Origin: a virus
Reading direction: 5' to 3' (one strand)
IMG/VR virus record: IMGVR_UViG_3300027985_000700
Coordinates: 1-64,000 of that record
Length of the DNA: 64,000 nucleotides
In this document: in pieces, positions 30,172-54,207 of the stretch
Layout: each line of letters begins with the position of its first letter
How positions within the stretch are numbered: the first letter of the stretch is position 1
Position numbers and translations under genes: made by a program
The notes under the pieces: model-generated
Database searches by the model: none
What the model was told of the DNA's origin: nothing
What the model saw: the letters and a program-made list of their open reading frames with translations, nothing else

Positions 30172-31103
30172 CTAAAATAATGTATTTTGTTTTGGTTTTG
30201 TACCATAAGTACAAACGTTATCTTTTGCTTTTTGTTCTAAGTACTTTATGTTAAATAAAGTTCTCTTCTTGTAGTCTTCACTAAGTTCCTCAATGGTATA
30301 ACCAAACTTATTTACATAACTAGTTATTGCCTTTTGTACTGGTAATGATTGGTTAACAAAGTGTTGTTTTTTGTTGGTACTTTTGTCACTTAATAGTATG
30401 GCACCAAAGTCTGACATTACACCACCATTAGCACTTTGCATAATCCAACTACTTGCGTCTGCACTGTATAATGGAAATTGTGCTATTAAATCAAAGTCTT
30501 GTACCCCTAAGGCATGAACCTTAATATCAGGATTTTTGCTATGTTTAATAATTTCAAATATCTTATGCAACTTAGCAACCTTTTCTGCCTTTGTTTTACC
30601 TACTATATTTCCAATAGCAACTAAATCTACTTTAGGTTCAAAGTTAAGTATATTCTCTAAATACATAGTATTACTACCAGCATGAAATACAGGAACAAGT
30701 TTTTGTGGACTTTTTACTTTACCATACATATATAAAAAGTTTTCCCACGTTTTCTTATTAGCTTCTAAACGTTCCTGACTTGTAGCATTTTTACCCAATC
30801 TGCCTGGTATTGAATCTACTTCCATAAAGTAACGTAAACCATCGTCCCATTTATTAACGTAAGCAATGTATTCATCTATGTCTACACTAACACCACGTGT
30901 CCAAGCAGTGAATGCACCACTATCTAAAAAAGTTAATTTACCTGCTGCACAACGTTTCTCAAATGGTCTTTTATCGTTCCAGTAACTTAATAACCTGTGT
31001 AGGTCTTGTTGGTCTATATACTCGTCAGCTTCAGGACACTGAACCGGACGCCAGCAAAATAAATATTAAAAGGTTTTTTATCTTTTAAATTGTTGCTGTT
31101 CAT
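30172..31103 (-). CDS. dpdA: 7-deazaguanine DNA transglycosylase DpdA, interrupted by a frameshift
   Basis: TGT-like DpdA enzymes exchange guanine in DNA for a 7-deazaguanine base. Seen here: LTFLDSGAF, the catalytic-Asp region, FMEVD, PVFHAG, VAIGNIVG, KVHALGV and SADASSW. The ATG at 31103 opens PFNIYFAGV, but the frame then shifts at 31049-31036: the start frame hits a stop about 10 codons later, while CPEADEY and all the rest lie in another frame. A 5-base hop from GTC to GTT would give FAGVQCPEADEY, a continuous 308-residue protein. If no recoding occurs the gene is broken, or an internal start at 30825 gives a truncated form. It directly follows a GIY-YIG gene. Confidence 0.75.
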
Positions 31104-31108
31104 AATCA

Positions 31109-31801
31109 TCACTCTCCTTTATATTTCCAAATATAACCCAAACCTGTCTTGTTTACACCTTGTAAACACTTACCAATAGTATCAACACAACAATTATTAT
31201 CTTTTGCCGCTTGTACTATACTTGGATAACTATTTAAAAATTTTCCTTCTTTACTATATTGTTCTATTTCTTTACCCATAATTAATTTACAGTTTTTATG
31301 TGCTAGTATTTCTGGTAACAAATAAACCTCGTGTTCATATAACCATACATACCCCTTACATAATATTTTATTACGACAAGCATAATTAATACTATTATAA
31401 TGAACCTTCATTTGTTTGGCAGCTATACCACTACTTTCAAAAATGTTTATTTGGTTACCATTTAAATCGTATTGTAAAACTGTTTTACTTCTTTTGTTGT
31501 CCTTACCACTATTAACAGGACAAGCATCCCCACCTATTGTTGAATTAAAACCTTTATTATAACTATTATATAAATCAACATAGTAAATTTCTTTTTGTTT
31601 TAACTCTTTCATTGTGTTTGCATTATCTATAACTTCCCACGTAAAGTAATCTTTTGGATATTTACTTAGAGCCTTTTGGAATTTGTGGTTCTTTTTAAGG
31701 TCGTAATAATGTTTTTTAATACGTTCTTTTAAGGTATGGGTAGTTATTCCAATATAAACTCTTCCATCTTTATGTGTGCATTTGTAAACAATGCCTTCCA
31801 T
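31109..31801 (-). CDS. GIY-YIG homing endonuclease
   Basis: 230 residues from the ATG at 31801, 7 bases after AAAGGAG. The GIY-YIG domain is intact (IVYKCTHKDGRVYIG, then ERIKKH, FTWEVID and the catalytic-Glu-like LKQKEIYYVDLY). Two NUMOD-type DNA-binding repeats follow (FESSGIAAKQM and YPSIVQAAKDN). It has its own promoter and ends with AAAGGAGAG, which doubles as the ribosome site for dpdA. This cassette-like position matches the HNH gene before queE. Confidence 0.88.
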   Translation of the reverse strand: MEGIVYKCTHKDGRVYIGITTHTLKERIKKHYYDLKKNHKFQKALSKYPKDYFTWEVIDNANTMKELKQKEIYYVDLYNSYNKGFNSTIGGDACPVNSGKDNKRSKTVLQYDLNGNQINIFESSGIAAKQMKVHYNSINYACRNKILCKGYVWLYEHEVYLLPEILAHKNCKLIMGKEIEQYSKEGKFLNSYPSIVQAAKDNNCCVDTIGKCLQGVNKTGLGYIWKYKGE

Positions 31802-31826
31802 ATTATTCTCCTTTCTCATTACTTAA

Positions 31827-31855
31827 ATTATACCATATCTGTGGTGAAATGTCAA
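31827..31855 (-). promoter_or_regulatory. Sigma-A promoter of the GIY-YIG/dpdA/dnaN/recA operon
   Basis: Consensus TTGACA (31855-31850), 17 bp ending in TGG, TATAAT (31832-31827). One of the strongest promoters in the window. Confidence 0.85.
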
Positions 31856-31864
31856 GTAATATAA

Positions 31865-31891
31865 ATAAAAAAAGTTGGTTGTTCACCAACT
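31865..31891 (-). terminator. Intrinsic terminator
   Basis: On the minus strand AGTTGGT pairs with ACCAACT around 5 bases and is followed by seven T. Ends the queC operon. Confidence 0.85.
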
Positions 31892-32174
31892 ATTTTTTAA
31901 GTAGTTTTACATTTACTCTGTCACGGTAACTACCATTATTTATCCATAATCTATATTCTTGATGTATTTCAAAACAGTGTGGATAGTTAATGTCTTCGTT
32001 GTAACATATAGACATCTCTTCATCAATTATGGGTATAGTAACATATTTGTGGTCTTTACTTAAAACTACACCACATTTGTATTCTCCATTAAAGTATTCG
32101 TTTTCTATAAGTATGTAATAATCTTCATAGGGTATATTTTCCTGTTTAAGGACCTTTATAACCTCGTTTAACAT
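31890..32174 (-). CDS. Hypothetical protein
   Basis: 94 residues, acidic N-terminus and basic C-terminus, predicted alpha/beta. No family recognised. Its start overlaps the previous stop by one base; last gene of the queC operon. Confidence 0.6.
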   Translation of the reverse strand: MLNEVIKVLKQENIPYEDYYILIENEYFNGEYKCGVVLSKDHKYVTIPIIDEEMSICYNEDINYPHCFEIHQEYRLWINNGSYRDRVNVKLLKK

Positions 32175-32395
32175 TACTTAATAAATAGGTAACCAAACAC
32201 TTTTAAAGCCGTGTACATACCCATTATACCCATAATACCACTAAAACTAATAGGGTGGGTAGCAAACCTGTATAACCCACTTGTTTCACTTGGTACACCA
32301 AATATGCGTGTACAAATAAATAGTACCATAAAACTAACTACAAATCCTATTATAAATAATATAGGGGTATCCCAACTAAATATTTCTTTTAGCAT
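32174..32395 (-). CDS. Small membrane protein
   Basis: 73 residues with two hydrophobic helices (about 11-31 and 46-68). Overlaps the gene upstream by seven bases. Function unknown. Confidence 0.6.
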   Translation of the reverse strand: MLKEIFSWDTPILFIIGFVVSFMVLFICTRIFGVPSETSGLYRFATHPISFSGIMGIMGMYTALKVFGYLFIK

Positions 32396-32868
32396 TTAGC
32401 ACCTCCAAAGTAAATTAAAAATCTCCAATTACTATTATCAATACGTTTCATTTTTAAGTCTTTAACCTGTTGTTTGTTATCATAATACATTGTTAACTGT
32501 TTGTTAACTAAGTCACTTGCCTTTAAGTCAGGGTATAAAGCAACTAATGTAGCAAGATCAACATTGTTAAGGTTGGTATAAGTTTGTTGTTCATAATTCA
32601 TATAATTACCAACTATTTTAGTGATACCAACTTCTATATCAGCATTTTCTACTTCTAGCATTTCTATTTTTTGGTTTATTGTAGTATTGTCAAGTAGTTT
32701 AAAACTAACGGAGAATAATAAACCTACCATTACAAAAAATGCTACCACAAACAGTGTGCCACCAATACCCAAAAATGTTTCTTGGGTATTATTATCATAC
32801 TTAGCATTGTCCCCCTTTGCTACAATAAACACACCACAAATCATTATTAGTAAACATATAATTACCAT
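32389..32868 (-). CDS. Membrane protein with soluble helical domain
   Basis: 159 residues, two N-terminal transmembrane helices (about 1-16 and 33-55) followed by a helical domain (INQKIEMLEVENADIE...). This layout resembles small phage membrane proteins of unknown role, possibly superinfection-related, but no motif is decisive. Confidence 0.6.
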   Translation of the reverse strand: MVIICLLIMICGVFIVAKGDNAKYDNNTQETFLGIGGTLFVVAFFVMVGLLFSVSFKLLDNTTINQKIEMLEVENADIEVGITKIVGNYMNYEQQTYTNLNNVDLATLVALYPDLKASDLVNKQLTMYYDNKQQVKDLKMKRIDNSNWRFLIYFGGAKC

Positions 32869-32880
32869 ATTATTTCCTCC

Positions 32881-33630
32881 TTATAATATTATATTACCTT
32901 CACTTGGTTTAATGTCTCTTTGTAATAAGTAAAGGTATGCATCTTTAATATCATTTTCTTCTTTAGCACCACGACCATATGTACCGTTGTCAATTTGTGT
33001 CATAACAAGTTTTAAGTAAGCCATAACGTCACTTAATACATCGTCACTAAATTTCATACCATTTAGCATAAATGCAATAACTTTTCTAACACATGGTTTA
33101 CATTTAAAACAAGGTTTTCCATCGTGTGGGAAGTAACAACTAAAACTGCCGTTCCATGCTTCTTCTAGTGTACCACCTTTGTCTAAATACATTTTAAGTA
33201 ATTCACGTTTAGTGTATTCTTTAAAGTCTACATTAATACGTATATTACGTTCTTCAGTCCAGTGTTGTTTTTGGTACAAGAAACTAAATAGTTCTCCTGC
33301 CTTTTGTGCGAACTCAGGACTCTTATCTAAAACTCTGTCCCCGTAAGTTGCACCCAAACATATTTCATCGCCATAGTTAGTTGCTATAGCAGTAAAATAT
33401 AAGTTACGTAAAGGAATTATTTTATCTTCCCTTTCAATACTATGTAGGTTAAGTACATCTTTTAGTACAATAACATCACTATCTAGTTTACTTATTTCTT
33501 CTTTACTATAGCTACTATTAATATCTATGTATAGTTTTACATCAGGTTCCCATATTTTACTTATTAACCAACTATCCATACCACCACTATAAAGTAGTAC
33601 TTTTTTACTTTTTGGGTTAAAGTCTGTCAT
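32881..33630 (-). CDS. queC: 7-cyano-7-deazaguanine (preQ0) synthase
   Basis: 249 residues from the ATG at 33630, 8 bases after AAAGGGG. The PP-loop is LLYSGGMDS, followed by GATYGDR and the zinc site SCYFPHDGKPCFKCKPC. QueC converts 7-carboxy-7-deazaguanine to preQ0 using ATP and ammonia. It separates QueC from QueD/E/FolE by 6-8 kb, but all parts of the pathway are present. No QueF-like reductase was seen, so preQ0 itself is probably the base inserted in DNA. Confidence 0.88.
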   Translation of the reverse strand: MTDFNPKSKKVLLYSGGMDSWLISKIWEPDVKLYIDINSSYSKEEISKLDSDVIVLKDVLNLHSIEREDKIIPLRNLYFTAIATNYGDEICLGATYGDRVLDKSPEFAQKAGELFSFLYQKQHWTEERNIRINVDFKEYTKRELLKMYLDKGGTLEEAWNGSFSCYFPHDGKPCFKCKPCVRKVIAFMLNGMKFSDDVLSDVMAYLKLVMTQIDNGTYGRGAKEENDIKDAYLYLLQRDIKPSEGNIIL

Positions 33631-33904
33631 AACCATTACCCCTTTCATTATCGGCTTTTATTTTACCTTTAATATTTTTTAATCTTTGTTCAATACGTTT
33701 TATAATAACATTTTGTGCTTCCTCCATTGTGGCATACATAAAGTTTTCGTTAGTGTGTGTTGTACCGTTAGACACAATTTCATAACAAAGATTATTGTCT
33801 CTATCAATAGCCATACCCGTAACAGTATATTTATAAATGTTATCTTTATACCATAATTCATCGATTACGTATACATCTTGTCCTAGTTTAAATTTTGGTT
33901 CCAT
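33617..33904 (-). CDS. Hypothetical protein
   Basis: 95 residues, small beta-rich N-terminal part (KFKLGQDVYVID) and a Lys-rich helix at the end. It overlaps queC by 14 bases. Function unknown. Confidence 0.6.
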   Translation of the reverse strand: MEPKFKLGQDVYVIDELWYKDNIYKYTVTGMAIDRDNNLCYEIVSNGTTHTNENFMYATMEEAQNVIIKRIEQRLKNIKGKIKADNERGNGYDRL

Positions 33905-33905
33905 A

Positions 33906-34136
33906 TTATCTTTCTCCTTTTAAAATTAAATATTCATCTACAGCTCTAATAGATTCTACTACTTTATCAAGTAGTTCTATTAGTTTCTTTTCTTGGTTAA
34001 TATCTAAGTTGTTGTGTTGTATACCCATAACATTAACTTCATTATCAACCATATAATCTACTTTTTTATGGTCAGTAATAAATGTTGTATTACCCCACAA
34101 TCTAATATCGTAATCAGTTACACTTCTTTTTTCCAT
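33906..34136 (-). CDS. Hypothetical protein
   Basis: 76 residues, ending with a helix (KLIELLDKVVESIRAVDEYL). Tight spacing to both neighbours. No family recognised. Confidence 0.6.
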   Translation of the reverse strand: MEKRSVTDYDIRLWGNTTFITDHKKVDYMVDNEVNVMGIQHNNLDINQEKKLIELLDKVVESIRAVDEYLILKGER

Positions 34137-34147
34137 ATTAATCCTCC

Positions 34148-34567
34148 TTATTTAAAGTATGCTTTATTATGGTAGTCAACTAATTCATACTGTGTTAAAT
34201 CAGTACCAATTAATTCTTCAGGTGTTTTAGTAGGGTTACTTACAATACATTTAACAACGGCGTGTAAACCGTAATGTAATTGTAAACCTATTGTTTTACT
34301 TGTAATGCCTGTAATGTCACGTATGTCTTCCCATACTTCTTCATTACCGTAAGGTCTTTTACCGTCCATTTCCATAGCACCAAACTCACACCCATTATTA
34401 CTTATAAAGTATGCACGTCTTAAAAGTAATAAATGATAGTTAGTTAATACGTGTGTATTTATTTTTTCTTCATTTTTGTTAATAAGGTTAAGTTCTTTTA
34501 AAACCTCATCTCCATATTCATCTTGTATTAAAGCAATTGCCCTTTTGGCTTCTTTACTTAATTCCAT
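34148..34567 (-). CDS. Hypothetical protein
   Basis: 139 residues, starting after AAAGGAGGG. Helical N-terminus; contains MDGKRPYGNEEVWEDIRDI. Unknown family. First gene of the queC operon after its promoter. Confidence 0.62.
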   Translation of the reverse strand: MELSKEAKRAIALIQDEYGDEVLKELNLINKNEEKINTHVLTNYHLLLLRRAYFISNNGCEFGAMEMDGKRPYGNEEVWEDIRDITGITSKTIGLQLHYGLHAVVKCIVSNPTKTPEELIGTDLTQYELVDYHNKAYFK

Positions 34568-34588
34568 ATTACCCTCCTTTATATTACT

Positions 34589-34617
34589 ATTATACCATAT
34601 TAATTATAGAAAGTAAA
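34589..34617 (-). promoter_or_regulatory. Sigma-A promoter of the queC operon
   Basis: TTTACT (34617-34612), 17 bp ending in TGG, TATAAT (34594-34589). Confidence 0.78.
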
Positions 34618-34636
34618 GGACTTATTAAATAAGCCC
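34609..34636 (-). terminator. Possible terminator
   Basis: GGGCTTAT pairs with ATAAGTCC (one G-T) around three bases and is followed by TTTACTTT. It overlaps the stop of the gene at 34625 and the -35 box of the next promoter. Confidence 0.45.
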
Positions 34637-35071
34637 TTGTTTTTCAAGTTTTTCTAGTACTTCGTTACGTTTATTGGTATTCCATACCATATTCATATGT
34701 CTATTACCAACTTCATTACGTACTTGATTTCTTGCAATTTTTCTATTATAAACAGTAAATTGTTTATTTTTACCACTACCAACAACTTCAACACCTAGTT
34801 TTGTTTTAAGTTGTTTACCATTTTTATCCCTGTTAAAAGGGTATATAAGTGTGTTCTTACCTAGTGTTTTACAAACATTTAAAGCATGGTTTAACTTTAG
34901 TTGTCTAATGGTATATTTAACTAGTTCCTTAAGGTTGTTAACTACTGTGTCTTCATTAGTAGTTGCATCTTTAATACTAACTGGTTCAATACCTTCCTTC
35001 GTTAGTTGTTCTTTAATTTCGTCAAGATCTGCATAAACATATCCAGCTGTTCTTAATTTTTTGTCGTCCAT
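34625..35071 (-). CDS. Hypothetical protein
   Basis: 148 residues, basic C-terminal half (RKIARNQVRNEVGNRHMNM) that could bind nucleic acid. No family recognised. Two bases after hpt. Confidence 0.6.
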   Translation of the reverse strand: MDDKKLRTAGYVYADLDEIKEQLTKEGIEPVSIKDATTNEDTVVNNLKELVKYTIRQLKLNHALNVCKTLGKNTLIYPFNRDKNGKQLKTKLGVEVVGSGKNKQFTVYNRKIARNQVRNEVGNRHMNMVWNTNKRNEVLEKLEKQGLI

Positions 35072-35072
35072 A

Positions 35073-35615
35073 TTAATTCTCCTCTTTTATCATAATGTGA
35101 TTTAAGTTACGTTTTAAACCATTATCATCTAAACCATAACCATATACAAATAAGTCATCTATTACATATAACTTCCAATCAGGTATATATACTTTTTTAC
35201 TAGGGTCTATTGCTTTATCTAAAAGTACACACGTATTAATACTTACAGGATTCATTTTCATAAGTTCTTCAGTAACTGCTTTTAACGTAACCCCAGTATC
35301 ACAAATGTCGTCCATTATAATAACATGACAACCACCCACATCAGGTAATTTAGTTTCTATCTTTAATTTACCTTGTTTGTTGTCAGTGTAGCTTTTTACC
35401 TTTATAAATTCAAGTGTATGATCAGTAGTTAACTTACGTGTTAAGTCACTTACAAAGTGCACACTACCGTTTAAAATACCAATAATAACAACTTTATTTT
35501 CTTCGCTTGCTTGTATTTTTAATTTTAAATACTCGTCAATATCTATAGCTAAATATTTTAAATCGTATTGTAGTTCCTTACTATTTATTAAAACATTTTT
35601 ATTCTTTTTAAACAT
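35073..35615 (-). CDS. hpt: Hypoxanthine phosphoribosyltransferase
   Basis: 180 residues from the ATG at 35615 (TAGGAGGAA upstream). The PRPP-binding loop VIIMDDICDTGVTL, the GILNGSVHF hydrophobic loop and the C-terminal VYGYGLDDNG-type metal segment identify it. It salvages hypoxanthine or guanine to IMP/GMP. Supply of guanine nucleotides could serve DNA synthesis and GTP for the FolE-to-preQ0 route; that link is inference. Confidence 0.88.
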   Translation of the reverse strand: MFKKNKNVLINSKELQYDLKYLAIDIDEYLKLKIQASEENKVVIIGILNGSVHFVSDLTRKLTTDHTLEFIKVKSYTDNKQGKLKIETKLPDVGGCHVIIMDDICDTGVTLKAVTEELMKMNPVSINTCVLLDKAIDPSKKVYIPDWKLYVIDDLFVYGYGLDDNGLKRNLNHIMIKEEN

Positions 35616-35625
35616 TTTGTTCCTC

Positions 35626-35865
35626 CTAGTACCTACGTACATCTTTTATTCTTATATAGTCTCCACTACATTTTTGTAGTGTAATAATTTCACGTAAAAT
35701 AAGTTCTCCAAATGTAATTATAAGATACCAACTTGTTTCGTTTATTGGCAAGTTGGTAACCTTATACCCTACATTTTTGGTGTTAAGTATTAAACTATTA
35801 TATTCGTCTACTGTTAATATTTTATTTACTTTTGGATACCATAAATCTTTAGCTTTATAACTCAT
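35626..35865 (-). CDS. Hypothetical small protein
   Basis: 79 residues from the ATG at 35865, which overlaps the polymerase stop; longer in-frame starts up to 35910 exist inside the polymerase gene. Small basic protein with a beta-strand pattern. Function unknown. Confidence 0.5.
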   Translation of the reverse strand: MSYKAKDLWYPKVNKILTVDEYNSLILNTKNVGYKVTNLPINETSWYLIITFGELILREIITLQKCSGDYIRIKDVRRY

Positions 35866-38125
35866 CTTGTATGTCTTCTCCATACCAACGTTCGTTAATT
35901 TCACCATCACATTTAATAGGCATCTTTAGTTTAATATTAGCAGCGTCTTTCATTATTTGTACCATTATACTTAACGCCTCCTTAGCATTTTCTTTTGGTA
36001 CTTCCCCAATTACTTCATCATGTATTGTAAGTAATGTCTTGTACCCAAGTTCACGTAATCTTTCATTTCTGTATAACATAAGTATTGCTACTTTAGTTAT
36101 ATCAGCACTACTACCTTGTATTGCACTATTTAGTATTTGTCTTTGTGCCTGTGCTATAGCTGTACCATTATCAATAATTTTAACTCTAAAATGTTGGGCT
36201 ATTTCAGGCATTCTTTTTCTAGCCTCCCATTTGTTAAATTGGTTTAACATATTACGGGCACTTTCACATAATGTAGGATCTTGTCCAGTAATACTAAATT
36301 GTGGTAAGTTATAATCAGGTAGTCTTCTTTTTCTTCCCCATATAGTTTTAACAAAACCTTTTTGTCTAACTAATTCTTGAAGTTGTTGTTCAAAAACTTT
36401 AATTGAAGGATAAGTTTCGTAGAAACGGTTAATAATATCCTTAGCTTCATCAACAGACGTTTTTATTTGTTCTGCAATACTTGCAGCCCCACGCCCATAT
36501 AAAATACCAAGTAAAACACTTTTAACATAACCTCTACGTTGTTTAGCTTCAGGACTAAATTTTTCTAAACATTCTTCATAAGGTAGGTTGTATATTTTAC
36601 TAGCCATGTCACTATATAAATCTTTACCTGTTGTATAGGCTTCAATCATATGTGGGTCTTGGGCTAGAAATGCAGTAAGTCTTGGTTCAATTTGGCTATA
36701 GTCAGCTCCTATAAAATAATAACCTTCTTTTGGTATAAACATTTTACGTATGTCTGTATTATGGGAAGGTATATTTTGTAAGTTAGGGTCACTACTACTA
36801 AATCTACCTGTATCAGCTCCATATTGGTTAAACTTACCGTGTACACGTCCAGTATTAGGACTAATACTTTTATTAGGTAGTTTATCAATATAAGTTCCAA
36901 GTAATTTTTTTAATCCTCTATATTCAAGTAACTTAGTTATCATTTGGTTAAGTTCAGGGTATGCCTTACCAACTTTTGCCAATTCTTTTTTACCAACACT
37001 TTCCTTTTTAAGTCCTACTTTTAAATAATCTACTTTTAATATTTTAAATAATAAAATATTAAATTGTGTAGGACTATCTAGGTTAACAGGGTCATTAAGT
37101 TTACTATATAACTCAGGTTGTTCCTGTTTAAATTGTGGTAAATAAGGGTTTATTAAGTTACTAACAAGTTCATTTAATTCTATAAAACAAGCATCTATTT
37201 GTTCAGTATACTTAACACTTAACTCATGTGCATATTCTATATCAATACTAACACCAGTATCCTCCATACTTGCTACTGCCTCAGTAAGTGGGGCTTCTAT
37301 TTGGGTAAATAAATAACCAGTATCTACTAAATCTTGTTCTATACAAGGCTCACTAACACCATCTAAAAATGGTAATTGGAATTTGTATAGTTCGTATGTA
37401 GCCCACGCATCAAATGCTGCATAGTAATACACACGGTTAGGGTCTAGTATGTCAAAGGTTAAATGTCCAAATAGTTTTTTATAATTATCAGGGTCTATTG
37501 TTTTCTCAGGTGTACCTAAACAATATTTTTCCCATAACCATTTTAAGGCATGAGAACTGTCGTTTTCGTTTAAAAACTTACCTGCAATAAGACAGTCCCA
37601 ATAAGGTCTTATGTATTCATTTCCTTTGTAGGCATTGTTTATGTATCTAAGGTCAAAGGTAGCATTGGCAAATAATACTTTTAATTTACCATTTCTACTT
37701 AAATCTATAATACTTTTTATAAAGTTAGTTGCGTCTATATTAGGGTAGTTTAAATGTCCAACAGGTACATACAAACTTGTCTCCCCCTCAGTGTATAAAC
37801 ACAAACCAACTAGTTTGTCGTCAATTGGGTTTAAGCCAGTTCCTTCTGTATCTAAAGATAAAACGCCTGTTTGAATTATCTTTTGTAAGTAATCATTCAG
37901 GCGTTGTTCATCTTTACATAATTCCAATACCACGTCAGGTCTTTTATGTTGTAGCCTTGTTACGTACTCGTCCATACGTTTATAACATTCTTCAACATCT
38001 TGTACCCTTGTTCTAACTACACGTACTTGTTTAGGCTTTTTAGCTTTATCAATTACTTCTTTAGCAGTTAGTTTTGGTGTTGGTTGTTTAACGGCAATGC
38101 CAGCAAATAAACTATTTTGGTTCAC
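35855..38125 (-). CDS. polA: Family A DNA polymerase (Pol I-like)
   Basis: 756 residues. A 3'-5' exonuclease domain starts near residue 90 (LSLDTEGTGLNP, later FANATFDLRYINN and the YAAFDAW segment). The polymerase domain has motif A DYSQIEPRLTAF, motif B RRGYVKSVLLGILYG and motif C TIHDEV. There is no 5'-3' exonuclease domain. It is the replicative polymerase, expected to work with the phage clamp and clamp loader. Confidence 0.95.
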   Translation of the reverse strand: MNQNSLFAGIAVKQPTPKLTAKEVIDKAKKPKQVRVVRTRVQDVEECYKRMDEYVTRLQHKRPDVVLELCKDEQRLNDYLQKIIQTGVLSLDTEGTGLNPIDDKLVGLCLYTEGETSLYVPVGHLNYPNIDATNFIKSIIDLSRNGKLKVLFANATFDLRYINNAYKGNEYIRPYWDCLIAGKFLNENDSSHALKWLWEKYCLGTPEKTIDPDNYKKLFGHLTFDILDPNRVYYYAAFDAWATYELYKFQLPFLDGVSEPCIEQDLVDTGYLFTQIEAPLTEAVASMEDTGVSIDIEYAHELSVKYTEQIDACFIELNELVSNLINPYLPQFKQEQPELYSKLNDPVNLDSPTQFNILLFKILKVDYLKVGLKKESVGKKELAKVGKAYPELNQMITKLLEYRGLKKLLGTYIDKLPNKSISPNTGRVHGKFNQYGADTGRFSSSDPNLQNIPSHNTDIRKMFIPKEGYYFIGADYSQIEPRLTAFLAQDPHMIEAYTTGKDLYSDMASKIYNLPYEECLEKFSPEAKQRRGYVKSVLLGILYGRGAASIAEQIKTSVDEAKDIINRFYETYPSIKVFEQQLQELVRQKGFVKTIWGRKRRLPDYNLPQFSITGQDPTLCESARNMLNQFNKWEARKRMPEIAQHFRVKIIDNGTAIAQAQRQILNSAIQGSSADITKVAILMLYRNERLRELGYKTLLTIHDEVIGEVPKENAKEALSIMVQIMKDAANIKLKMPIKCDGEINERWYGEDIQDEL

Positions 38126-38835
38126 TAGAACATTTTAGCTGGTGAATTTGTATTGTTTGTTTGTGTAGGTGTTGTAGGCATAACAATATTAGGGTTAACA
38201 TTAAATTGTGTTGTTTGTGGTTGAACATGTTGTGAATATGCATTCATTATATTAGTACTTGTTTGGTTGGTGTTTAGGTTTAATGTACCTTGTGCTGCTT
38301 GAATCATTTCTTCTTCAGTTAACTCAAGTACAAAACCTTTGTGTCCATCAACTATTTTTTTACGTTCAGGTAAGTTAGGTACTGCACTATTAATAGCTGA
38401 TACCACAGGTGATATAAAGTATTTAGTGTCCTTACTACCTCTATTACCTTGTCTTGTAATGCTATATGGAATCTTATTTAAAGCTCCATTTTGGTTCATA
38501 AATACTATTAATTGTTCAATATGGTTTTTACCTCTATCCCAAATTAATACTTCTTCTGTACCTTCTTTTACAAGTTGAATCATAGCTCTTAACATTGGTT
38601 TATAACCAGAACGTGCTAATGCGTCGTTGTCACTGTTTTGTTTTACATATCTTTCCTTGTCTCCAATTTTAATTTTGTAAACAATAAACCAGTCCAATTC
38701 GTTAGGGTTATCCCCATATAAGAATCTAACCACGGCACTGTCACCGTTGTTTTGTAGGTTAAAGAAACTTGTACCTCCATTGTTACCATATTTTTTTAAT
38801 GCATCTTCAAGTGATAAGTTTGTGTTGTTGTTCAT
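38125..38835 (-). CDS. Probable single-stranded DNA-binding protein
   Basis: 236 residues. The N-terminal ~165 residues look like a phage SSB core (SFFNLQNNGDSAVVRFLYG and YFISPVV). The last ~60 are Gln/Asn/Thr/Pro-rich and disordered, like the tail of many SSBs, ending in SPAKMF. It sits directly upstream of polA in the same operon. The call is from composition and position more than from motifs. Confidence 0.65.
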   Translation of the reverse strand: MNNNTNLSLEDALKKYGNNGGTSFFNLQNNGDSAVVRFLYGDNPNELDWFIVYKIKIGDKERYVKQNSDNDALARSGYKPMLRAMIQLVKEGTEEVLIWDRGKNHIEQLIVFMNQNGALNKIPYSITRQGNRGSKDTKYFISPVVSAINSAVPNLPERKKIVDGHKGFVLELTEEEMIQAAQGTLNLNTNQTSTNIMNAYSQHVQPQTTQFNVNPNIVMPTTPTQTNNTNSPAKMF

Positions 38836-38840
38836 ATTTT

Positions 38841-39275
38841 CTAATCCTCCTCTGTGTAAGTTGCGAAACTTGTTGGTGTTTCGTATAATTTAATTTCTGT
38901 TACCTTCATACCTACTGGCAATGCCTCATTTATATCTTTAAACATAATACGACTCATGTTTTCACAAGTAGTTCTACAACCTATTACTTTATTTTTGTAA
39001 CCAAGTTCTTGGATATATTTTAAAATAGGTTCGTCACCACAAGCAATAAATGCGTGGTCATATTTTGATAAGATAGCTTCTTCTACGATAGATTTTAAGT
39101 TTTTAAAATCTATTATCATACCCTCTTTAGGGTGGGCTGTAATACTTTCAACTACTGGACCTGTTAAGGTTACAAATAGTTTATAAGTATGTCCATGAAT
39201 ATTTTTACATAAACCATCATGATTTAGTAATTGGTGAGAACAGTCAAAACTGTACTCTTTTGTTACGGTTAACAT
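38841..39275 (-). CDS. queD: 6-carboxytetrahydropterin synthase
   Basis: 144 residues. Zinc ligands appear as DCSHQL and NIHGHTY, the pterin-anchoring Glu as KLYETP, and the catalytic DHAF element is intact. QueD converts dihydroneopterin triphosphate (from FolE) to 6-carboxytetrahydropterin, the second step to preQ0. It heads the operon that also encodes the SSB-like protein and polymerase. GGGAGGAA precedes the ATG. Confidence 0.9.
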   Translation of the reverse strand: MLTVTKEYSFDCSHQLLNHDGLCKNIHGHTYKLFVTLTGPVVESITAHPKEGMIIDFKNLKSIVEEAILSKYDHAFIACGDEPILKYIQELGYKNKVIGCRTTCENMSRIMFKDINEALPVGMKVTEIKLYETPTSFATYTEED

Positions 39276-39381
39276 ATTATTCCTCCCTTTAATAAGTTGT
39301 AGCCCCCCACCAAACTACATAATACTGTACCCATTATTAATGGTTAACTAACCACCATGTCAACAGTATCCCAATAAATTA
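39276..39381 (-). promoter_or_regulatory. Structured leader of the queD/polA operon
   Basis: The ~100-nt leader can fold with ATACTGT paired to ACAGTAT. Inside it GGTTAGTTAACC forms a hairpin that competes with CCATTAATAATGG; a GTAG/CTAC hairpin with a G-rich loop follows. It could be a riboswitch or an operator. It does not match the preQ1 class I pattern as I know it. A TTGACA lies in the leader with TTAATA 17 bp downstream, a possible second, weaker promoter. Confidence 0.4.
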
Positions 39382-39410
39382 ATTATACCACAATCTTGTT
39401 AGAATGTAAA
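39382..39410 (-). promoter_or_regulatory. Sigma-A promoter of the queD/polA/hpt operon
   Basis: TTTACA (39410-39405), 17 bp ending in TGG, TATAAT (39387-39382). Confidence 0.8.
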
Positions 39411-39416
39411 TACTTT

Positions 39417-39545
39417 TTAACAACTTATGAGTTGTTTATATAAATCATAAGCCACACTCCAACCAAGAAATGCAGCAAGTGTTGTAATAAGGGCTATGAC
39501 AATAGCAGCTACCATTACGGCAAACATTTTTTCATCTTCGCTCAT
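39417..39545 (-). CDS. Small single-pass membrane protein
   Basis: 42 residues: acidic start (MSEDEK), hydrophobic helix at about 7-28, short cytosolic tail. AAGGAGGAT lies just upstream of its ATG. Last gene of the queE/folE operon. Function unknown. Confidence 0.6.
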   Translation of the reverse strand: MSEDEKMFAVMVAAIVIALITTLAAFLGWSVAYDLYKQLISC

Positions 39546-39557
39546 ATGTAATCCTCC

Positions 39558-40244
39558 TTATTTAATTGCTTGTAAAAATCTTTCTTCTAAGTGTTTATCA
39601 GTTCTAAATACACCTCTTGTACTTATAGTAACTGTACTACTATCAAATGGTGCTTCAACTCCTCTGGCTGTCATACAAGTATGTGTTTCTTCTAAACAAA
39701 CAATTACACCTTGTGCGTCCATTTCTTCCATTAAAGCATTTGCTATTTGATCACTTAGTCTTTCTTGTAGTTGGAAACGTTTAGCGTAACCTTCTACCAT
39801 TCTAGGTATTTTACTTAAACCAACTACTTTTTTATTAGGTAAATAACCAATACTTACATAACCATAAACAGGTAATACGTGATGTTCACAAACACTACGG
39901 CATTCAATACGTTTAACAATTACAATATCGTCATTACCACTATCTTTAAAGTTATAATCTAGGTCATCGTCATCTAAGTTAAATTGTACTTCTAAGTAGT
40001 CTTTAGGATTTTCACAATAACCTCTTGTCATTTCAAGCCAAGCTTTAACTACTCTAAAAGGTGTGTTTTTCATACCATTACTTTCACTATCACCACCACA
40101 AATGTCAATAAGTTTAGCAATACTAGGCATGATTTCGTTTTCTATACTTTCCATTATATCGTTATGGTCACCACTGCCTTTAATAATAACTCTATTTATG
40201 AGTAGTTTATTTATTTTTTCACGTTGTTTTTCATTTAATTCCAT
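39558..40244 (-). CDS. folE: GTP cyclohydrolase I
   Basis: 228 residues. Zinc and catalytic residues lie in CRSVCEHHVLP and EETHTCMTARG; GLSKIPRMV and the FQLQERL helix are intact. It converts GTP to dihydroneopterin triphosphate, the first step of 7-deazaguanine synthesis. The first ~30 residues and an acidic insert (DDDDLDYNF) are phage-specific. It lies ten bases after queE. Confidence 0.94.
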   Translation of the reverse strand: MELNEKQREKINKLLINRVIIKGSGDHNDIMESIENEIMPSIAKLIDICGGDSESNGMKNTPFRVVKAWLEMTRGYCENPKDYLEVQFNLDDDDLDYNFKDSGNDDIVIVKRIECRSVCEHHVLPVYGYVSIGYLPNKKVVGLSKIPRMVEGYAKRFQLQERLSDQIANALMEEMDAQGVIVCLEETHTCMTARGVEAPFDSSTVTISTRGVFRTDKHLEERFLQAIK

Positions 40245-40253
40245 ATTTCCTCC

Positions 40254-41021
40254 TTACACGCCCTGCCTATTACCCCATACCAAAGTATGAAGTTGTAACA
40301 TAACATAAACGTCTTCCATATCACTTTCTAAAACCTTGGTAACAAGTTTTTCATAATCTTGTATTACCCTGTTTCGTACATTTAATATATCTTGTTCCCC
40401 AACGTCAGTGTTACCAACATTTAAGTACAATTTTATACCAGTTCTATTTGTACGTAGTTTAATATCTTGTATTAAGTTATAGTATCTACGAGCAAATTCA
40501 AAATCCTCGTCGTTAAATACTGGTATTTTAATTGTAACAGGTAAATTAAAACGTACTTTAGGATTATACATTAACCAATTACCTACGTTATCAATTACAT
40601 CAGGTTGTCCACTAGATGGTGCTTTTGGGCTAATAACCACATTGTCTACCTTGTCTAGCCAATCAGGTAATTTACTACCTTGTGTTTCAACATCCACTTT
40701 AATGTCAGCTTCATGTAATGCATTAATAACTTTACTAAAGTCATATAAACAAGGGTTACCACCTGTTAGTACAACATTTTTTGTATTTGTGTCTTGACAT
40801 TTAATTATTAATTCAAATAGTAGTTCATCTTCAGTATACACTTTTGTGTCATTATTTCTCTTCCAAGCAAACTTACTATCACACCAACTACAATTAAAAT
40901 CACACCCTACAACTCTAACAAATAAAGTTTTTTTACCTGTGTTAGGACCTTCTCCTTGTATTGTAGGACCTCAACCGAACACTTCGGCAACAGGTATTCT
41001 TACTGTTCTTTCGGTATTCAT
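40254..41021 (-). CDS. queE: 7-carboxy-7-deazaguanine synthase QueE, interrupted by an in-frame TGA
   Basis: Radical SAM enzyme converting carboxytetrahydropterin to 7-carboxy-7-deazaguanine. The ATG at 41021 (SD inside the HNH gene's end; ATGA overlap) encodes VRIPVAEVFG, then TGA at 40973-40971, then GGT and the conserved PTIQGEG in the same frame, with radical-SAM cysteines in GCDFNCSWC. Relatives such as B. subtilis QueE read EIFGPTIQGEG with nothing between G and P. Hopping from the GGT before the stop to the GGT after it would give exactly that, a 253-residue protein. A 5-bp hairpin (CCGAA/TTCGG) ends one base before the TGA. No UGA-reading tRNA was found here. Without recoding, only an N-terminally truncated form from 40841 could be made, lacking the cluster cysteines. 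Confidence 0.8.
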
Positions 41022-41587
41022 ATGTTATCACTCTCCTTTATATGTTTCCACGAACGGTTGTTATAAATATCCCATATAGTAGCATATTTTATATTAGGAT
41101 ACTTTTTACAAACGTCTTTTAAACATATCTTTTTATATTTCATATTTTTAATGTCTTGTACTATATTAACATTAAGTAAACAGGCTGGGTTGTCTACCCC
41201 TAACCGATTACGTAAATGAGTTCGTATAGCGTGTTGTGTATTTTCTTTAGCGGTTACCCATTCTAAGTTGTTAACAAAACAATTATTTTTGTTGCCATCA
41301 ATATGGTTAACCTGTGGTAAATTATCAGGATTTGGTATAAAAGTTTGGGCTACCAATATGTGAACTAAATGTTGTTGTTCCTTACCATCTTTACATAAGG
41401 AAACAACGGGGTATCCGTTAGGTTTAAATGTATTTTTCTTTATAACACCTTTAAACGTACGAAGTCTACCCATACTATCTGTGTAAGTTCTATCAAGACT
41501 TCTTACTGTTCCATAATTAGATATCTCATACCAACCTTCATAGTTAGGAATCGGTTTAAATATTTCTGCTACTGGTATTTTAACCAT
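41018..41587 (-). CDS. NUMOD4/HNH homing endonuclease whose N-terminus copies QueE
   Basis: 189 residues after AAGGAGGAG. The NUMOD4 motif (PNYEGWYEISNYGTVRSL) is followed by an HNH (VAQTFIPNPDNLPQVNHIDGNK at about 82-103 with the N-N-x-x-x-N-LEWVT tail) and a C-terminal helix-turn-helix. Before NUMOD4 it begins VKIPVAEIF, nearly identical to the QueE start VRIPVAEVF encoded downstream but with AT-rich codons. The enzyme therefore probably inserted into queE near codon 15 and queE was rebuilt behind it. Own promoter at 41614. Confidence 0.88.
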   Translation of the reverse strand: MVKIPVAEIFKPIPNYEGWYEISNYGTVRSLDRTYTDSMGRLRTFKGVIKKNTFKPNGYPVVSLCKDGKEQQHLVHILVAQTFIPNPDNLPQVNHIDGNKNNCFVNNLEWVTAKENTQHAIRTHLRNRLGVDNPACLLNVNIVQDIKNMKYKKICLKDVCKKYPNIKYATIWDIYNNRSWKHIKESDNI

Positions 41588-50936: not shown

Positions 50937-51012
50937 TGGTACTCCGTGCGGGATTTGAACCCGCAATTACCACCTTGAAAGGGTGGTGGCTTAACCGTTC
51001 GCCTAACGGAGC
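50937..51012 (-). tRNA. tRNA-Glu(UUC)
   Basis: Loop CTTTCAA on CCACC/GGTGG, acceptor GCTCCGT/ACGGAGT, CCA encoded. Confidence 0.9.
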
Positions 51013-51017
51013 AATTA

Positions 51018-51094
51018 TGGTACACCCTGTAAGACTCGAACTTACGACCTTCTGCTTGTAGAACAGATGCGCTAACCAACTGTGCTAAGGGTGC
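51018..51094 (-). tRNA. tRNA-Val(UAC)
   Basis: Loop TCTACAA, acceptor GCACCCT/AGGGTGT, A73, CCA encoded. Confidence 0.9.
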
Positions 51095-51205
51095 ATGACG
51101 TGGCTTCTTTATTTGTGTACCTTTATTACAGGGTATTCGATGTACCCACCTGAAGCCGATCCCCACTTCATCTAGTTTATGTACGGGGGATTTATTTTTA
51201 ATTTA
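51095..51205 (-). other. Spacer with a minimal tRNA-like hairpin pair
   Basis: Between tRNA-Val and tRNA-Arg. GGCTTC pairs with GAAGCC at the ends of a ~56-nt segment that encloses a 5-bp stem with 7-base loop (GGGTA, CATCGAA, TACCC), which looks like an anticodon arm without D- and T-arms. A second hairpin (GATCCCC/GGGGGAT) follows. Function unknown. Confidence 0.3.
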
Positions 51206-51282
51206 TGGTGTATCTGAAGGGACTCGAACCCATAATCTTTTGGTTCGTAGCCAAGTGCTTTATCCAGTTAAGCTACAGATAC
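51206..51282 (-). tRNA. tRNA-Arg(ACG)
   Basis: Loop CTACGAA, acceptor GTATCTG/CAGATAC, CCA encoded. A34 would need host TadA to become inosine. Confidence 0.9.
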
Positions 51283-51285
51283 ATA

Positions 51286-51399
51286 TTAACCACGTTTTTT
51301 CTTTTTATTAGTTTTACCTTTACTAGTAGTAGTTGCTATTTTAGCAAAGTGTGCACTAAACTTTTCTTGTTTGTGTTTACTACCTTTTCCTTTTGCCAT
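51286..51399 (-). CDS. Small basic protein
   Basis: 37 residues, about one third Lys/Arg (MAKGKGSKHK start, NKKKKRG end), after AAGGAGTG. Located between tRNA genes. It may bind RNA, but this is only composition. Confidence 0.55.
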   Translation of the reverse strand: MAKGKGSKHKQEKFSAHFAKIATTTSKGKTNKKKKRG

Positions 51400-51423
51400 A
51401 TTAATCACTCCTTAATTATATAA

Positions 51424-51500
51424 TGGTGCGCCACCGAAGACTCGAACTTCGGACCTCTCACGTATCAGGCGAGTACTCTAACCAACTGAGTTAATGGCGC
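51424..51500 (-). tRNA. tRNA-Ile(GAU)
   Basis: Loop CTGATAC, acceptor GCGCCAT/GTGGCGC, CCA encoded. Confidence 0.9.
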
Positions 51501-51503
51501 AAG

Positions 51504-51578
51504 TGGTGCATCCAGAAAGATTCGAACTTTCAACCTCTACATTAAAAGTGTATTATTCTACCATTGAATTATGGATGC
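51504..51578 (-). tRNA. tRNA-Lys(UUU)
   Basis: Loop CTTTTAA, acceptor GCATCCA/TGGATGC, CCA encoded. Confidence 0.9.
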
Positions 51579-51579
51579 G

Positions 51580-51747
51580 TTATGTATCTTGTGCACCCTT
51601 ATACTTTCGTTTTCTAGGTATTAGATACTTTAATGACTTATGTACTTTACCACCCTTCATGACTTGTTCTTGATGCCATAAATTGGGTAACTTAGCATAA
51701 TCTATTTTGTTTGTAGGTAATTTTATAACTTGTTTTTTCTTACTCAT
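51580..51747 (-). CDS. Small basic protein
   Basis: 55 residues, Lys-rich (MSKKKQVIKL start; PRKRKYKG near the end), after GAGGTGA. Second basic mini-protein in the tRNA array. Unknown function. Confidence 0.55.
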   Translation of the reverse strand: MSKKKQVIKLPTNKIDYAKLPNLWHQEQVMKGGKVHKSLKYLIPRKRKYKGAQDT

Positions 51748-51770
51748 TTTAATCACCTCTTATATATTTA

Positions 51771-51846
51771 TGGTGGAGAATAAGGGACTCGAACCCTTGA
51801 CCTACTGCGTGCAAGGCAGTTGTTCTACCAGCTGAACTAATTCCCC
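51771..51846 (-). tRNA. tRNA-Ala(UGC)
   Basis: Loop CTTGCAC, acceptor GGGGAAT/ATTCTCC, CCA encoded. Confidence 0.93.
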
Positions 51847-51850
51847 ATAA

Positions 51851-51928
51851 TGGTCGGGATAGAGGGATTCGAACCCCCAACGCCTCCGCTCCAAACGGAG
51901 AGTTCTACCAAATTGAATCTACATCCCG
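51851..51928 (-). tRNA. tRNA-Pro(UGG)
   Basis: Loop TTTGGAG on CTCCG/CGGAG, acceptor CGGGATG/TATCCCG, CCA encoded. Confidence 0.9.
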
Positions 51929-51952
51929 ATATAGTTAGTTAAATAAAATATG

Positions 51953-52234
51953 CTATCTTATTCTTTCTATTGTTTGACCTTGGTTGTTTAATAAAAATAC
52001 TCCTGCATACAAACTTGGTCTACTTTCTTTGTCTAATATTTTAAGTTCTACTTCTTCATCAGTTGGTATTCTATTTAATGGTAATGTATATAATAATTCC
52101 TTACTTCTATACATATTTATAAAATCCCTATTTGACGCATCTGTAAATGTGTTTACATTATCTATATCGGCATATATGTGCTTATGTCCATCTATAGACA
52201 ATCCTTTACTATATTCAACTAATTCTACTATCAT
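51953..52234 (-). CDS. Hypothetical protein inside the tRNA array
   Basis: 93 residues, acidic, predicted alpha/beta. Ribosome site AAGAGATAAG is weak. A short direct repeat of CTAT/CTAA units lies just upstream. Function unknown. Confidence 0.55.
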   Translation of the reverse strand: MIVELVEYSKGLSIDGHKHIYADIDNVNTFTDASNRDFINMYRSKELLYTLPLNRIPTDEEVELKILDKESRPSLYAGVFLLNNQGQTIERIR

Positions 52235-52280
52235 TCTATCTTATCTCTTTTCTATCTAACTATCTATCTAACTAACTATT

Positions 52281-52357
52281 TGGTGCCAGTAACAGGACTT
52301 GAACCTATAATCCCACGGGTATGAACCGTGTGCATTAACCATTTGTGCTATACTGGC
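52281..52357 (-). tRNA. tRNA-Met(CAU), elongator type
   Basis: Loop TTCATAC, acceptor GCCAGTA/TACTGGC, CCA encoded. It could be elongator Met or, if lysidine-modified, Ile(CAU); the separate initiator is at 52439. Confidence 0.85.
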
Positions 52358-52360
52358 ATT

Positions 52361-52434
52361 TGGTTGCAGTTGCTAGGATTCCAACCTAGTATCTTCCTAT
52401 AACGAGGCGTGCGTGCATCACACTCTCAACTACA
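52361..52434 (-). ncRNA. Degenerate tRNA-like RNA
   Basis: Good acceptor (TGTAGTT/AACTGCA), A73 and CCA, and a T-stem (CTAGG/CCTAG), but the T-loop is TTGGAAT instead of TTCGAAT. The D domain is shortened and no normal 5-bp/7-base anticodon arm forms (CCT, CGTTAT, AGG at best). Anticodon not assignable. Confidence 0.45.
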
Positions 52435-52438
52435 TATA

Positions 52439-52514
<76 letters not shown>

Positions 52515-52521
52515 ATATAAT

Positions 52522-52598
52522 TGGTACTCGTTGATGGACTTGAACCACCGACCGCTCGCGTATAAGGCGTTTACTCTAACCAACTGAGCTAAACGAGC
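52522..52598 (-). tRNA. tRNA-Ile(UAU)
   Basis: Loop CTTATAC, acceptor GCTCGTT/AACGAGT, CCA encoded. Reads AUA, abundant in this genome. No sense-codon conflict seen. Confidence 0.88.
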
Positions 52599-52670
52599 AA
52601 TTAGCGTACCACTTTGATATAAGGTCCAAAATGTTTCCAACTGTAAACTCCCTATGGGTTACCATAATTT

Positions 52671-52753
52671 TTGAACTGGGGAGGACTCGAACCTCCATAC
52701 CCAAACTTGTTGTGTTGTACGTACAACGCTTTTCCAATTAAGCTACCTGTTCA
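52671..52753 (-). ncRNA. tRNA-like RNA without encoded CCA
   Basis: Acceptor TGAACAG/CAGTTCA, D-arm (AGCTTAATTGGAAAAGC) and T-arm (GGAGG, TTCGAGT, CCTCC) are normal. The anticodon region is a near-palindrome (GTTGTACGTACAAC) that leaves no standard 7-base loop; a 9-base loop between GTTGT and ACAAC is the alternative. CCA is not encoded, so the phage CCA-adding enzyme would be needed. Confidence 0.5.
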
Positions 52754-52759
52754 TATAAT

Positions 52760-52832
52760 TGGTGGAGTCATTAGGATTCTAACCTAAATTGAAGGCAACG
52801 CGTGACTTACTTCTAGTAACATACTTTTCCCC
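52760..52832 (-). ncRNA. Degenerate tRNA-like RNA
   Basis: Ends in CCA with a T-stem (TTAGG/CCTAA) and altered T-loop TTAGAAT; only four acceptor pairs (GGGG/CTCC). D and anticodon arms are not recognisable; a TTACTAGAAGTAA hairpin occupies their place. Confidence 0.4.
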
Positions 52833-52840
52833 ATATAAAT

Positions 52841-52941
52841 TGGTGCGGACGGGAGGGATCGAACCTCCAAACTTGTGTACTTAAAGCCTGCCTTAAAAGT
52901 CATGAACAATTAAGGGTGTATACCCATTTCACCACGACCGC
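52841..52941 (-). ncRNA. tRNA-like RNA with enlarged anticodon loop
   Basis: 101 nt: acceptor GCGGTCG/CGTCCGC (one mismatch), CCA encoded, T-arm GGAGG, TTCGATC, CCTCC. The anticodon-position stem CCTTAA/TTAAGG closes a 13-base loop (TTGTTCATGACTT) instead of seven, and the variable region is long. No amino acid assigned. Confidence 0.5.
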
Positions 52942-53587
52942 ATTTTGTGTTACCTCACTTGTTTTTTAAAAGGTTATAGAGTAACTATTTACTGTTATTT
53001 CCCTTTAGTACCTTATAGGCACTGTACTAAATAATACATTAAAGTTTTAAATTAATCATTACGCTTAGATTAATTCTTTGCGTTATGGCAGGTATCTCCA
53101 TTTGTATTTATCAGCTTAACAAATAAAATAAAAATAACTTTTACCCGCTGTATTTTTATATTTTATTTAGTACACTAACTACAAGAGTTAATGTGTATAG
53201 TAATGCCTCGGACTCATTACTAAATTTCCTACACTAAGGTATTACCTTAGACCGAGTAGCATATTGTAGAGTTATTAACTCCTTTGTAAGATGTAAACAT
53301 ATTGCAATGTTTTATGTTTTTAGTCAGCTGTTTTACAAATATTAAACATAAACTCATACATCTTACAAAGCAAAGAACAATTTTATTTGCTCTTGGCGGG
53401 GCAGTAGGATTTTACCTACCGTTAGTATTACTACTAACACCTTTGTCCCCCGCCAGCAACAAACAAATGTTGCCCCTAGTTTACAGGTTATACGCTTCCT
53501 CTGTTGTAGCTCATTCTGCGTTAACCATAATTTCGGTCGATACTTTGCTACAAGGGTTTACCAGCATCTTTCCCTTAATTTTTAATA
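52942..53587 (-). ncRNA. Second large structured noncoding RNA (~650 nt) inside the tRNA array
   Basis: No gene is supported here, but base-pairing is dense on the minus strand. TGGCGGGG pairs with CCCCGCCA around two inner hairpins (TTAGTAGTAATACTAA and TAGGTAAAATCCTA, near 53395-53455). TTGTAAGATGTA pairs with TACATCTTACAA (53284-53372). CTAAGGTAATACCTTAG (near 53235) and AATTAATCTAAGCGTAATGATTAATT (near 53050) are further hairpins. GC content in the stems exceeds the surroundings. Location beside tRNAs and size fit ornate phage RNAs such as ROOL or GOLLD, but I cannot confirm a family. Confidence 0.5.
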
Positions 53588-53677
53588 TGGCGCCAGGAGA
53601 GGGATTCGAACCCGCAGTACGCTTTCACGTACACTGGTTTTCAAGACCAGCTCTTTCACCAATTCAGACATCCTGGC
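53588..53677 (-). tRNA. tRNA-Ser(UGA)
   Basis: Loop CTTGAAA, class II variable arm, acceptor GCCAGGA/TCCTGGC, G73, CCA encoded. Confidence 0.92.
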
Positions 53678-53838
53678 ATCTCTTCGCCAAGGAACCTTTG
53701 TAAGTCACGTTTTTGTCTTGTTCTTACATAGCCACTTCCCATATTACGCTCACGTTTTCTATTTTTTGTATTTCTTCCGTGACCAAAGGCTGAGTAACAA
53801 CCAAGTACTTTTTTAACGTAACTATTTTTTGTTTTCAT
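53656..53838 (-). CDS. Small basic protein overlapping tRNA-Ser
   Basis: 60 residues from the ATG at 53838 after AAAGGAGG. Very Arg/Lys-rich (GRNTKNRKRERN, YVRTRQKRDLQRF). Its last codons run 22 bases into the tRNA-Ser gene, so processing of the tRNA would remove its stop codon. Third basic mini-protein in the array. Confidence 0.55.
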   Translation of the reverse strand: MKTKNSYVKKVLGCYSAFGHGRNTKNRKRERNMGSGYVRTRQKRDLQRFLGEEMPGCLNW

Positions 53839-53880
53839 GTAAATTACCTCCTTTAGAAGATAATCACACCCTTTCGTTAT

Positions 53881-53955
53881 TGGTTGGAAAGGTGGGAATC
53901 GAACCCACATGCTTAGATTCACAATCTAATACGTTAACCATTACGTCACTAACCA
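53881..53955 (-). tRNA. tRNA-His(GUG)
   Basis: Loop TTGTGAA on TTAGA/TCTAA, T-arm GTGGG, TTCGATT, CCCAC, CCA encoded. Two mismatches in the middle of the acceptor stem are unusual. Confidence 0.82.
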
Positions 53956-53956
53956 C

Positions 53957-54131: not shown

Positions 54132-54207
54132 TGGAGAAAGTGATGGGATTCGAACCCACGTAATCTGCTTGGAAGGCAGATAGACTAGACCACTGTCCTA
54201 CACTCTC
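54132..54207 (-). tRNA. tRNA-Gly(UCC)
   Basis: Loop CTTCCAA, acceptor GAGAGTG/CACTTTC, U73 as expected, CCA encoded. First RNA after the array promoter. Confidence 0.92.

Follow-up and report, generated by a model that had tools for sequence, protein, structure and literature searches.

The genes queE and dpdA of the virus record IMGVR_UViG_3300027985_000700 are each broken close to their 5' end, directly beside a homing endonuclease gene. The window analysed here comprises bases 1 to 64,000 of this 108,396-bp record (G+C about 30%). We propose that homing-endonuclease cassettes invaded the 5' ends of both genes and that the short inserts present at the junctions are crossed by a hop of the peptidyl-tRNA. 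Because of this proposed hop, QueE and DpdA would most likely still be made at some level. Judged from the DNA sequence, this account as a whole has a probability of about 0.5.

The minus strand of the window carries the preQ0 pathway genes queC, dpdA, queD, folE and queE, and the two invaded genes are part of the phage's 7-deazaguanine (preQ0) DNA-modification pathway. Whereas folE, queD and queC are intact, queE and dpdA are intact apart from a single break each: both are long and open, with one 5'-proximal break, which is an in-frame TGA in queE and a frameshift in dpdA.

A nuclease gene inside queE

The following features, all on the minus strand, make up this locus:

41018..41587, HNH homing endonuclease gene (NUMOD4 + HNH_3; Pfam NUMOD4 4.4e-15, HNH_3 6.6e-8)
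41558..41587, original queE 5' end ATGGTTAAAATACCAGTAGCAGAAATATTT, with which the HNH gene now begins (22/24 nucleotides identical to queE of relative L016)
41027..41039, AAAGGAGAGTGAT, putative Shine-Dalgarno sequence of the substitute queE start, within the end of the HNH gene
40977..41021, substitute queE 5' segment MNTERTVRIPVAEVF, largely a synonymous recoding of the original
40971..40976, queE insert GGTTGA, absent from uninterrupted QueE (predicted take-off codon GGT, stop TGA, predicted landing codon GGT at 40970-40968)
40254..40970, remainder of queE (GPTIQGEG..., 238 codons), intact, with a radical SAM Pfam match

The HNH protein starts with MVKIPVAEIF, which is the authentic QueE start, and continues as an ordinary NUMOD4 protein, the Pfam match to NUMOD4 beginning at residue 8. 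NUMOD4 homologues lack KIPVA, and other NUMOD4-HNH genes begin with M..EIWKPI or similar. Against the L016 queE start, no other gene start in the record exceeds 15/24 nucleotides (nt), and when the 108-kb record was scanned for duplicated starts, no stronger same-strand case emerged, except for an open reading frame antisense to a long gene. Since the HNH gene carries the authentic queE start, the cassette lies inside queE, and this comparison places the HNH gene between codons 9 and 10. Upstream of the HNH gene a TATAAT-like -10 element with a Shine-Dalgarno sequence close by was seen by eye.

At the other end of the HNH gene its stop codon TGA overlaps the new queE ATG (ATATGA). The segment that follows encodes RIPVAEVF, corresponding to the original KIPVAEIF, and shares 17/24 nt with the upstream copy, the changes falling mostly on wobble positions. 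The end of the old start, the end of the substitute and the 6-nt insert all meet at one codon border. In the conserved columns of QueE 38/40 residues match, and the two missing ones lie upstream of the junction. Thus, a displaced native end (the 22/24-nt remnant) and a divergent substitute (RIPVAEVF) are found beside the nuclease, the arrangement that characterizes replacement-type elements. Searches among phages for the donor of the substitute starts gave no close match. Taken together, a cassette that lies inside queE and carries a substitute start is very probable on sequence grounds.

We envisage that the HNH gene entered queE and that the original queE start became the N-terminus of the nuclease. 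The cassette would have brought a ribosome site overlapping the HNH stop codon, together with a substitute queE N-terminus, in which the protein sequence was kept while most wobble positions were changed, and a few inserted bases would connect the substitute start to the old queE. Recoding and insert together would stop the nuclease from re-cutting its own carrier.

The dpdA locus and the shared junction motif

The corresponding features at dpdA, likewise on the minus strand, are:

31109..31819, GIY-YIG homing endonuclease gene (GIY-YIG + NUMOD1; Pfam NUMOD1 1.6e-16, GIY-YIG 4.1e-7)
31108..31120, AAAGGAGAGTGAT, putative Shine-Dalgarno sequence of the substitute dpdA start, one of two copies in the window
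31047..31109, substitute dpdA 5' segment M(IM)NSNNLKDKKPFNIYFAGV, matching FNTYYAGV of relative L001 and FNTYYAGI of relative L097
31042..31046, dpdA insert CGGTT (predicted take-off codon GTC at 31049-31047, codon CGG, predicted landing codon GTT at 31044-31042); in L001 and L097 AGV or AGI is directly followed by QCPEA
30172..31041, remainder of dpdA (QCPEADEYI..., 289 codons), intact, 66% identical to L001 and L097

The GIY-YIG gene would represent the same layout without the remnant. It is preceded by TTGACA/TATAAT-like boxes, seen by eye, which resemble a promoter of its own, and the new dpdA start MNSNNLKDKKPFNIYFAGV also ends at the insert. In the conserved columns of DpdA 39/48 residues match, the differences being mostly conservative. 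Inspection by eye of the region upstream of the GIY-YIG gene for a displaced dpdA 5' remnant gave similarity at chance level only. Because no displaced 5' copy was found, the same design has less support here than at queE; we consider a replacement cassette at dpdA fairly probable. The original prediction had postulated a shared mobile cassette composed of endonuclease gene, ribosome site, rewritten 5' segment and boundary, a proposal that is strongly upheld for queE and, with less support, for dpdA.

Alignment with uninterrupted relatives defined the inserted bases. In dpdA, which over its full length is 66% identical to both L001 and L097, 5 nt are inserted (GTC(CGGTT)CAG; the window reads GGCGTC(CGGTT)CAGTGTCCT), and the uninterrupted genes read GCAGGTGTTCAGTGTCCT (AGVQCP) in L001 and AGIQCP in L097. 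In queE 6 nt with an in-frame stop are inserted (TTC(GGTTGA)GGT; the window reads GTGTTC(GGTTGA)GGTCCT), and the uninterrupted genes of L004 and L016, which are 62% identical, read ATATTTGGTCCC (IFGP). Among the loci inspected, almost all of the other 80 for viral QueE and of about 35 for DpdA run through the break point without interruption. A pattern search of viral contigs for any 6-nt insert in the FG-PT motif of QueE gave no match.

According to the original prediction, one motif of about 19 nt marks the break point in both genes. We located it at 31051-31033 in dpdA and at 40982-40965 in queE (minus strand). Aligned by eye, the two sites share 15 identities, with 3 mismatches and one 1-nt gap, which bears out the similarity; that the motif has no further copy in this context was correct as well, the sole additional match in the window to TCGGTTSAG with at most one mismatch being 4048-4040. 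The flanks GTYC and GTCCT derive mostly from conserved coding sequence, as the uninterrupted relative reads GGTGTTCAGTGTCCT in dpdA and TTTGGTCCC in queE. Since the remainder is conserved coding sequence in relatives, only the 5-6 inserted bases are abnormal, and the view of the whole 19 nt as the element found no support. When the flanks were fixed and 5- or 6-nt inserts were drawn at random, an equal or better alignment resulted in 0.5-0.65% of trials; the similarity between the junctions is modest and probably not accidental. The motif did not recur at this position in about 79 other viral QueE and 35 DpdA loci examined, and a common element is further disfavoured by the different families of the two nucleases (GIY-YIG and HNH). 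Under the refuting conditions set in the original prediction, the failure to recur and the coding character of the flanks tell against the motif but leave the cassette untouched. As a mobile signature the motif is weak.

The same string was indeed found before both gene starts: AAAGGAGAGTGAT has exactly two copies in the window, one at each border between nuclease and gene, and none in the remainder of the record. Because ATATAAAGGAGAGTGAT occurs in 24 other viral contigs, in which none of the inspected upstream reading frames is endonuclease-like, AAAGGAGAGTGAT is weak evidence for a cassette, and the shared Shine-Dalgarno string was rejected as a cassette signature.

Proposed hopping across the inserts and its alternatives

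In queE a predicted +6 hop, with the tRNA moving from GGT over TGA to GGT, restores the ancestral FGPTIQ exactly, and in dpdA a predicted +5 hop from GTC over CGG to GTT restores AGVQCPEA exactly. As in known bypass elements, take-off and landing codons can be read by one tRNA (GGT/GGT and GTC/GTT). Random inserts permit such a hop in 6% and 4-5% of cases for the two junctions (joint P about 0.003, with tests that were picked after the sequence had been seen). The codon in the A-site is a stop (TGA) in queE and the slow codon CGG in dpdA, again as in bypass elements; CGG is the rarest codon of the phage (5 of 29,619 codons, 0.17 per 1000). The codons preceding the junctions are unusually rare, reaching a level seen in 1.2% of windows for queE and 0.007% for dpdA, where the run GCT GGC GTC CGG has a frequency of 7e-5 of windows. 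At the two junctions local RNA structure is moderately stronger than usual (1.5% and 0.7% of coding windows). This is no more than suggestive, as stability is equally high in the native relative L019 and the outcome varies with the fold window. The conserved residues missing from the downstream frames are encoded by the substitute segments. Internal initiation is unlikely because no ATG, GTG or TTG follows shortly after either junction and none is usable before essential sequence. Stop-hops between matched codons have been described for synthetic constructs, and hops over slow sense codons are known as well (PMC5009743).

Several points weigh against hopping and against the account built on it, besides the late choice of the tests and the behaviour of the RNA folds. 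In nature, stop-hops have a low efficiency unless stimulators are present, and with 15 and about 19-21 residues the substitute peptides fall short of the 46 codons that precede the T4 gap. The matched codons may also be by-products, given how readily short inserts arise that repeat neighbouring bases. The insert is carried by no relative examined, and dpdA has neither an upstream remnant nor a clear identity step at its junction. Functional hopping across the inserts, as predicted from these codons, is in our view quite possible, at somewhat less than even odds.

Alternatively, the same cassettes may have arrived and queE and dpdA may recently have been killed, the inserts being left over from cleavage with inaccurate repair, or from untidy integration, and tolerated since the modification is dispensable. 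This is a serious contender, to which we would still not give even odds. It fits the in-frame stop in one gene and the frameshift in the other; both genes serve one dispensable pathway, so once either is lost, its partner is under weaker selection. A documented precedent for indels left by cutting and repair at the site of a homing nuclease is WHO6 in yeast (PMC7282813), and insertion plus a short scar would yield the same anatomy. However, no other lesion is present in the approximately 527 codons downstream of the junctions of queE and dpdA, nor in folE, queD and queC, the substitute starts have retained the conserved residues and the hop geometry is present in both genes. An end-joining scar alone would also not bring in a nuclease cassette.

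Recoding of another kind, namely UGA read-through in queE (FG-X-GPTIQ) together with a conventional -1 frameshift in dpdA (for instance at U-UUU in TAT TTT GCT), is unlikely. The TGA lies in frame, and a -1 shift would connect the two dpdA frames because the downstream one is already open about nine codons ahead of the junction. The products, however, would be altered: read-through adds two residues within FGPTIQGEG, a motif left uninterrupted in almost all of the 80 viral QueE loci examined, and the -1 shift would replace the conserved AG of YFAG. An in-frame TGA was seen in no other gene, and a suppressor tRNA was searched for in the record and none was found.

An array of 25 predicted tRNA genes is located at 48115-54207 (minus strand) of the window in this AT-rich phage; neither a stop-reading tRNA nor tRNA-Tyr or tRNA-Trp was called. 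One predicted tRNA-Val (tac; 52671-52753, minus strand) has an odd anticodon arm, GTTGTACGTACAAC, and lacks the CCA end; it may be degenerate or tRNA-Tyr-like. Elsewhere, the QueE of L022 (2501-3184) has at least six TAG codons within its gene, a few of them in place of conserved Gln residues (GPTI*GEG, ET*GS), and probably belongs to a phage in which TAG is recoded to Gln.

An assembly or sequencing artefact in the metagenomic contig is very unlikely: both junctions are known from one record only, but the two breaks differ in length, stand at two nuclease borders and consist of bases absent from relatives, and the inspected genes are otherwise clean. Scarcely credible, too, is a self-splicing intron that would be removed to join the original 5' exon to GGTCCT. 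In its favour, joining ...ATATTT to GGTCCT would restore queE exactly, and the HNH frame is fused to upstream coding sequence like some intron reading frames. Against it, only about 48 nt separate the HNH stop from the boundary and these encode a second queE N-terminus, the boundary lacks, in the right frame, the terminal G typical of group I introns, a 5' exon is missing from dpdA, and Rfam detected no ribozyme at E<=1, a search of limited power given that the presumed polA intron of L001 was likewise undetected. The DNA polymerase genes of L001 (1-893) and L097 (900-1220) contain insertions, one of them with a GIY-YIG gene, that are group I intron-like, although Rfam detected neither.

Relation to known homing elements

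Among the closest precedents for the cassettes proposed here is the bypass element of T4 gene 60, a 50-nt insert tied to a neighbouring homing endonuclease (PMC5009743), and the comparison made in the original prediction is apt. In T4 mobA/gene 60 (PMC5009743, PMC2988022), too, an HNH nuclease gene is inserted in the host gene and splits it, the downstream part starts anew, a short non-coding insert is thought to protect against cutting, and matched take-off and landing codons occur with a stop next to the take-off codon. In contrast to T4, the inserts in the phage described here measure 5-6 nt and bypass is predicted from sequence; moreover, the new N-terminus is a recoded duplicate of the old one, the nuclease carries the native start as a fusion, and two genes and two nuclease families are involved.

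Fungal mitochondrial mORFs, such as those in atp6 of Glomus and Allomyces (PMC3630166), also combine an endonuclease with a divergent, mostly synonymous copy of the displaced gene end. They differ in having LAGLIDADG or GIY-YIG nucleases, in their mitochondrial location and in replacing the C-terminus, which is why they need neither a second start nor bypass. The WHO elements at yeast FBA1 (PMC7282813) are likewise mobile units of a nuclease and a resistant replacement segment, and a displaced native fragment remains; here the 3' end is replaced, the elements are nuclear, the nuclease is LAGLIDADG and the host gene is fully open. The '+5, +6' hops and stop-hops of Weiss et al. 1987, as cited in PMC5009743, resemble the predicted ones in that matched codons flank a stop or slow codon and 9 nt yield one amino acid, while in that account they concern synthetic reporters and no natural gene. 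The ShiLan element of phage methylases (PMC11855218) is likewise an HNH gene that has entered a DNA-modification gene of a phage and lacks a splicing element, but it is in frame with the host gene and has no replacement gene end.

Two groups of loci in relatives were noted in this context. In L027 (IMGVR_UViG_3300005910_000256, 1466-1972) an HNH gene overlaps the queE stop and ends in ..NITGV, like queE in ..NTTGV; it is a possible 3'-end counterpart, yet 1/131 unrelated gene ends matches at least as well, so the similarity is not beyond chance. Genes beside dpdA end in a dpdA-like tail (..KKLF, ..KRLF, ..RKLF, ..KEDLW) in L158 (3338-4453), L170 (3346-3588), L112 (3289-3993) and L163 (1633-2193). 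These C-terminal duplications were not counted as mirror cases, as ...KLF/...DLW tails may be sliding-clamp-binding motifs.

The replaced 5' end, the native start fused to the nuclease and the very short insert set the cassette apart from the known systems; a literature search of incomplete coverage found no report of such an arrangement in phage dpdA or queE. We tentatively raise the rather doubtful possibility of a class of phage cassettes that replace the start of the host gene, in which the nuclease keeps the native start, a recoded copy takes its place and a 5-6-nt insert against re-cutting is crossed by a +5 or +6 hop. In that case no shorter natural bypass elements would be known, and they would occur twice in one pathway. 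The arrangement would be a phage counterpart to the replacement-type homing elements of fungi and yeast, located at a 5' gene end, which makes a new start codon necessary. The small inserts make it testable whether natural genes use short ribosome hops, for which the main examples so far are synthetic reporters, T4 gene 60 and yeast mitochondria. Here, selfish nucleases would target the very pathway that shields phage DNA from restriction.

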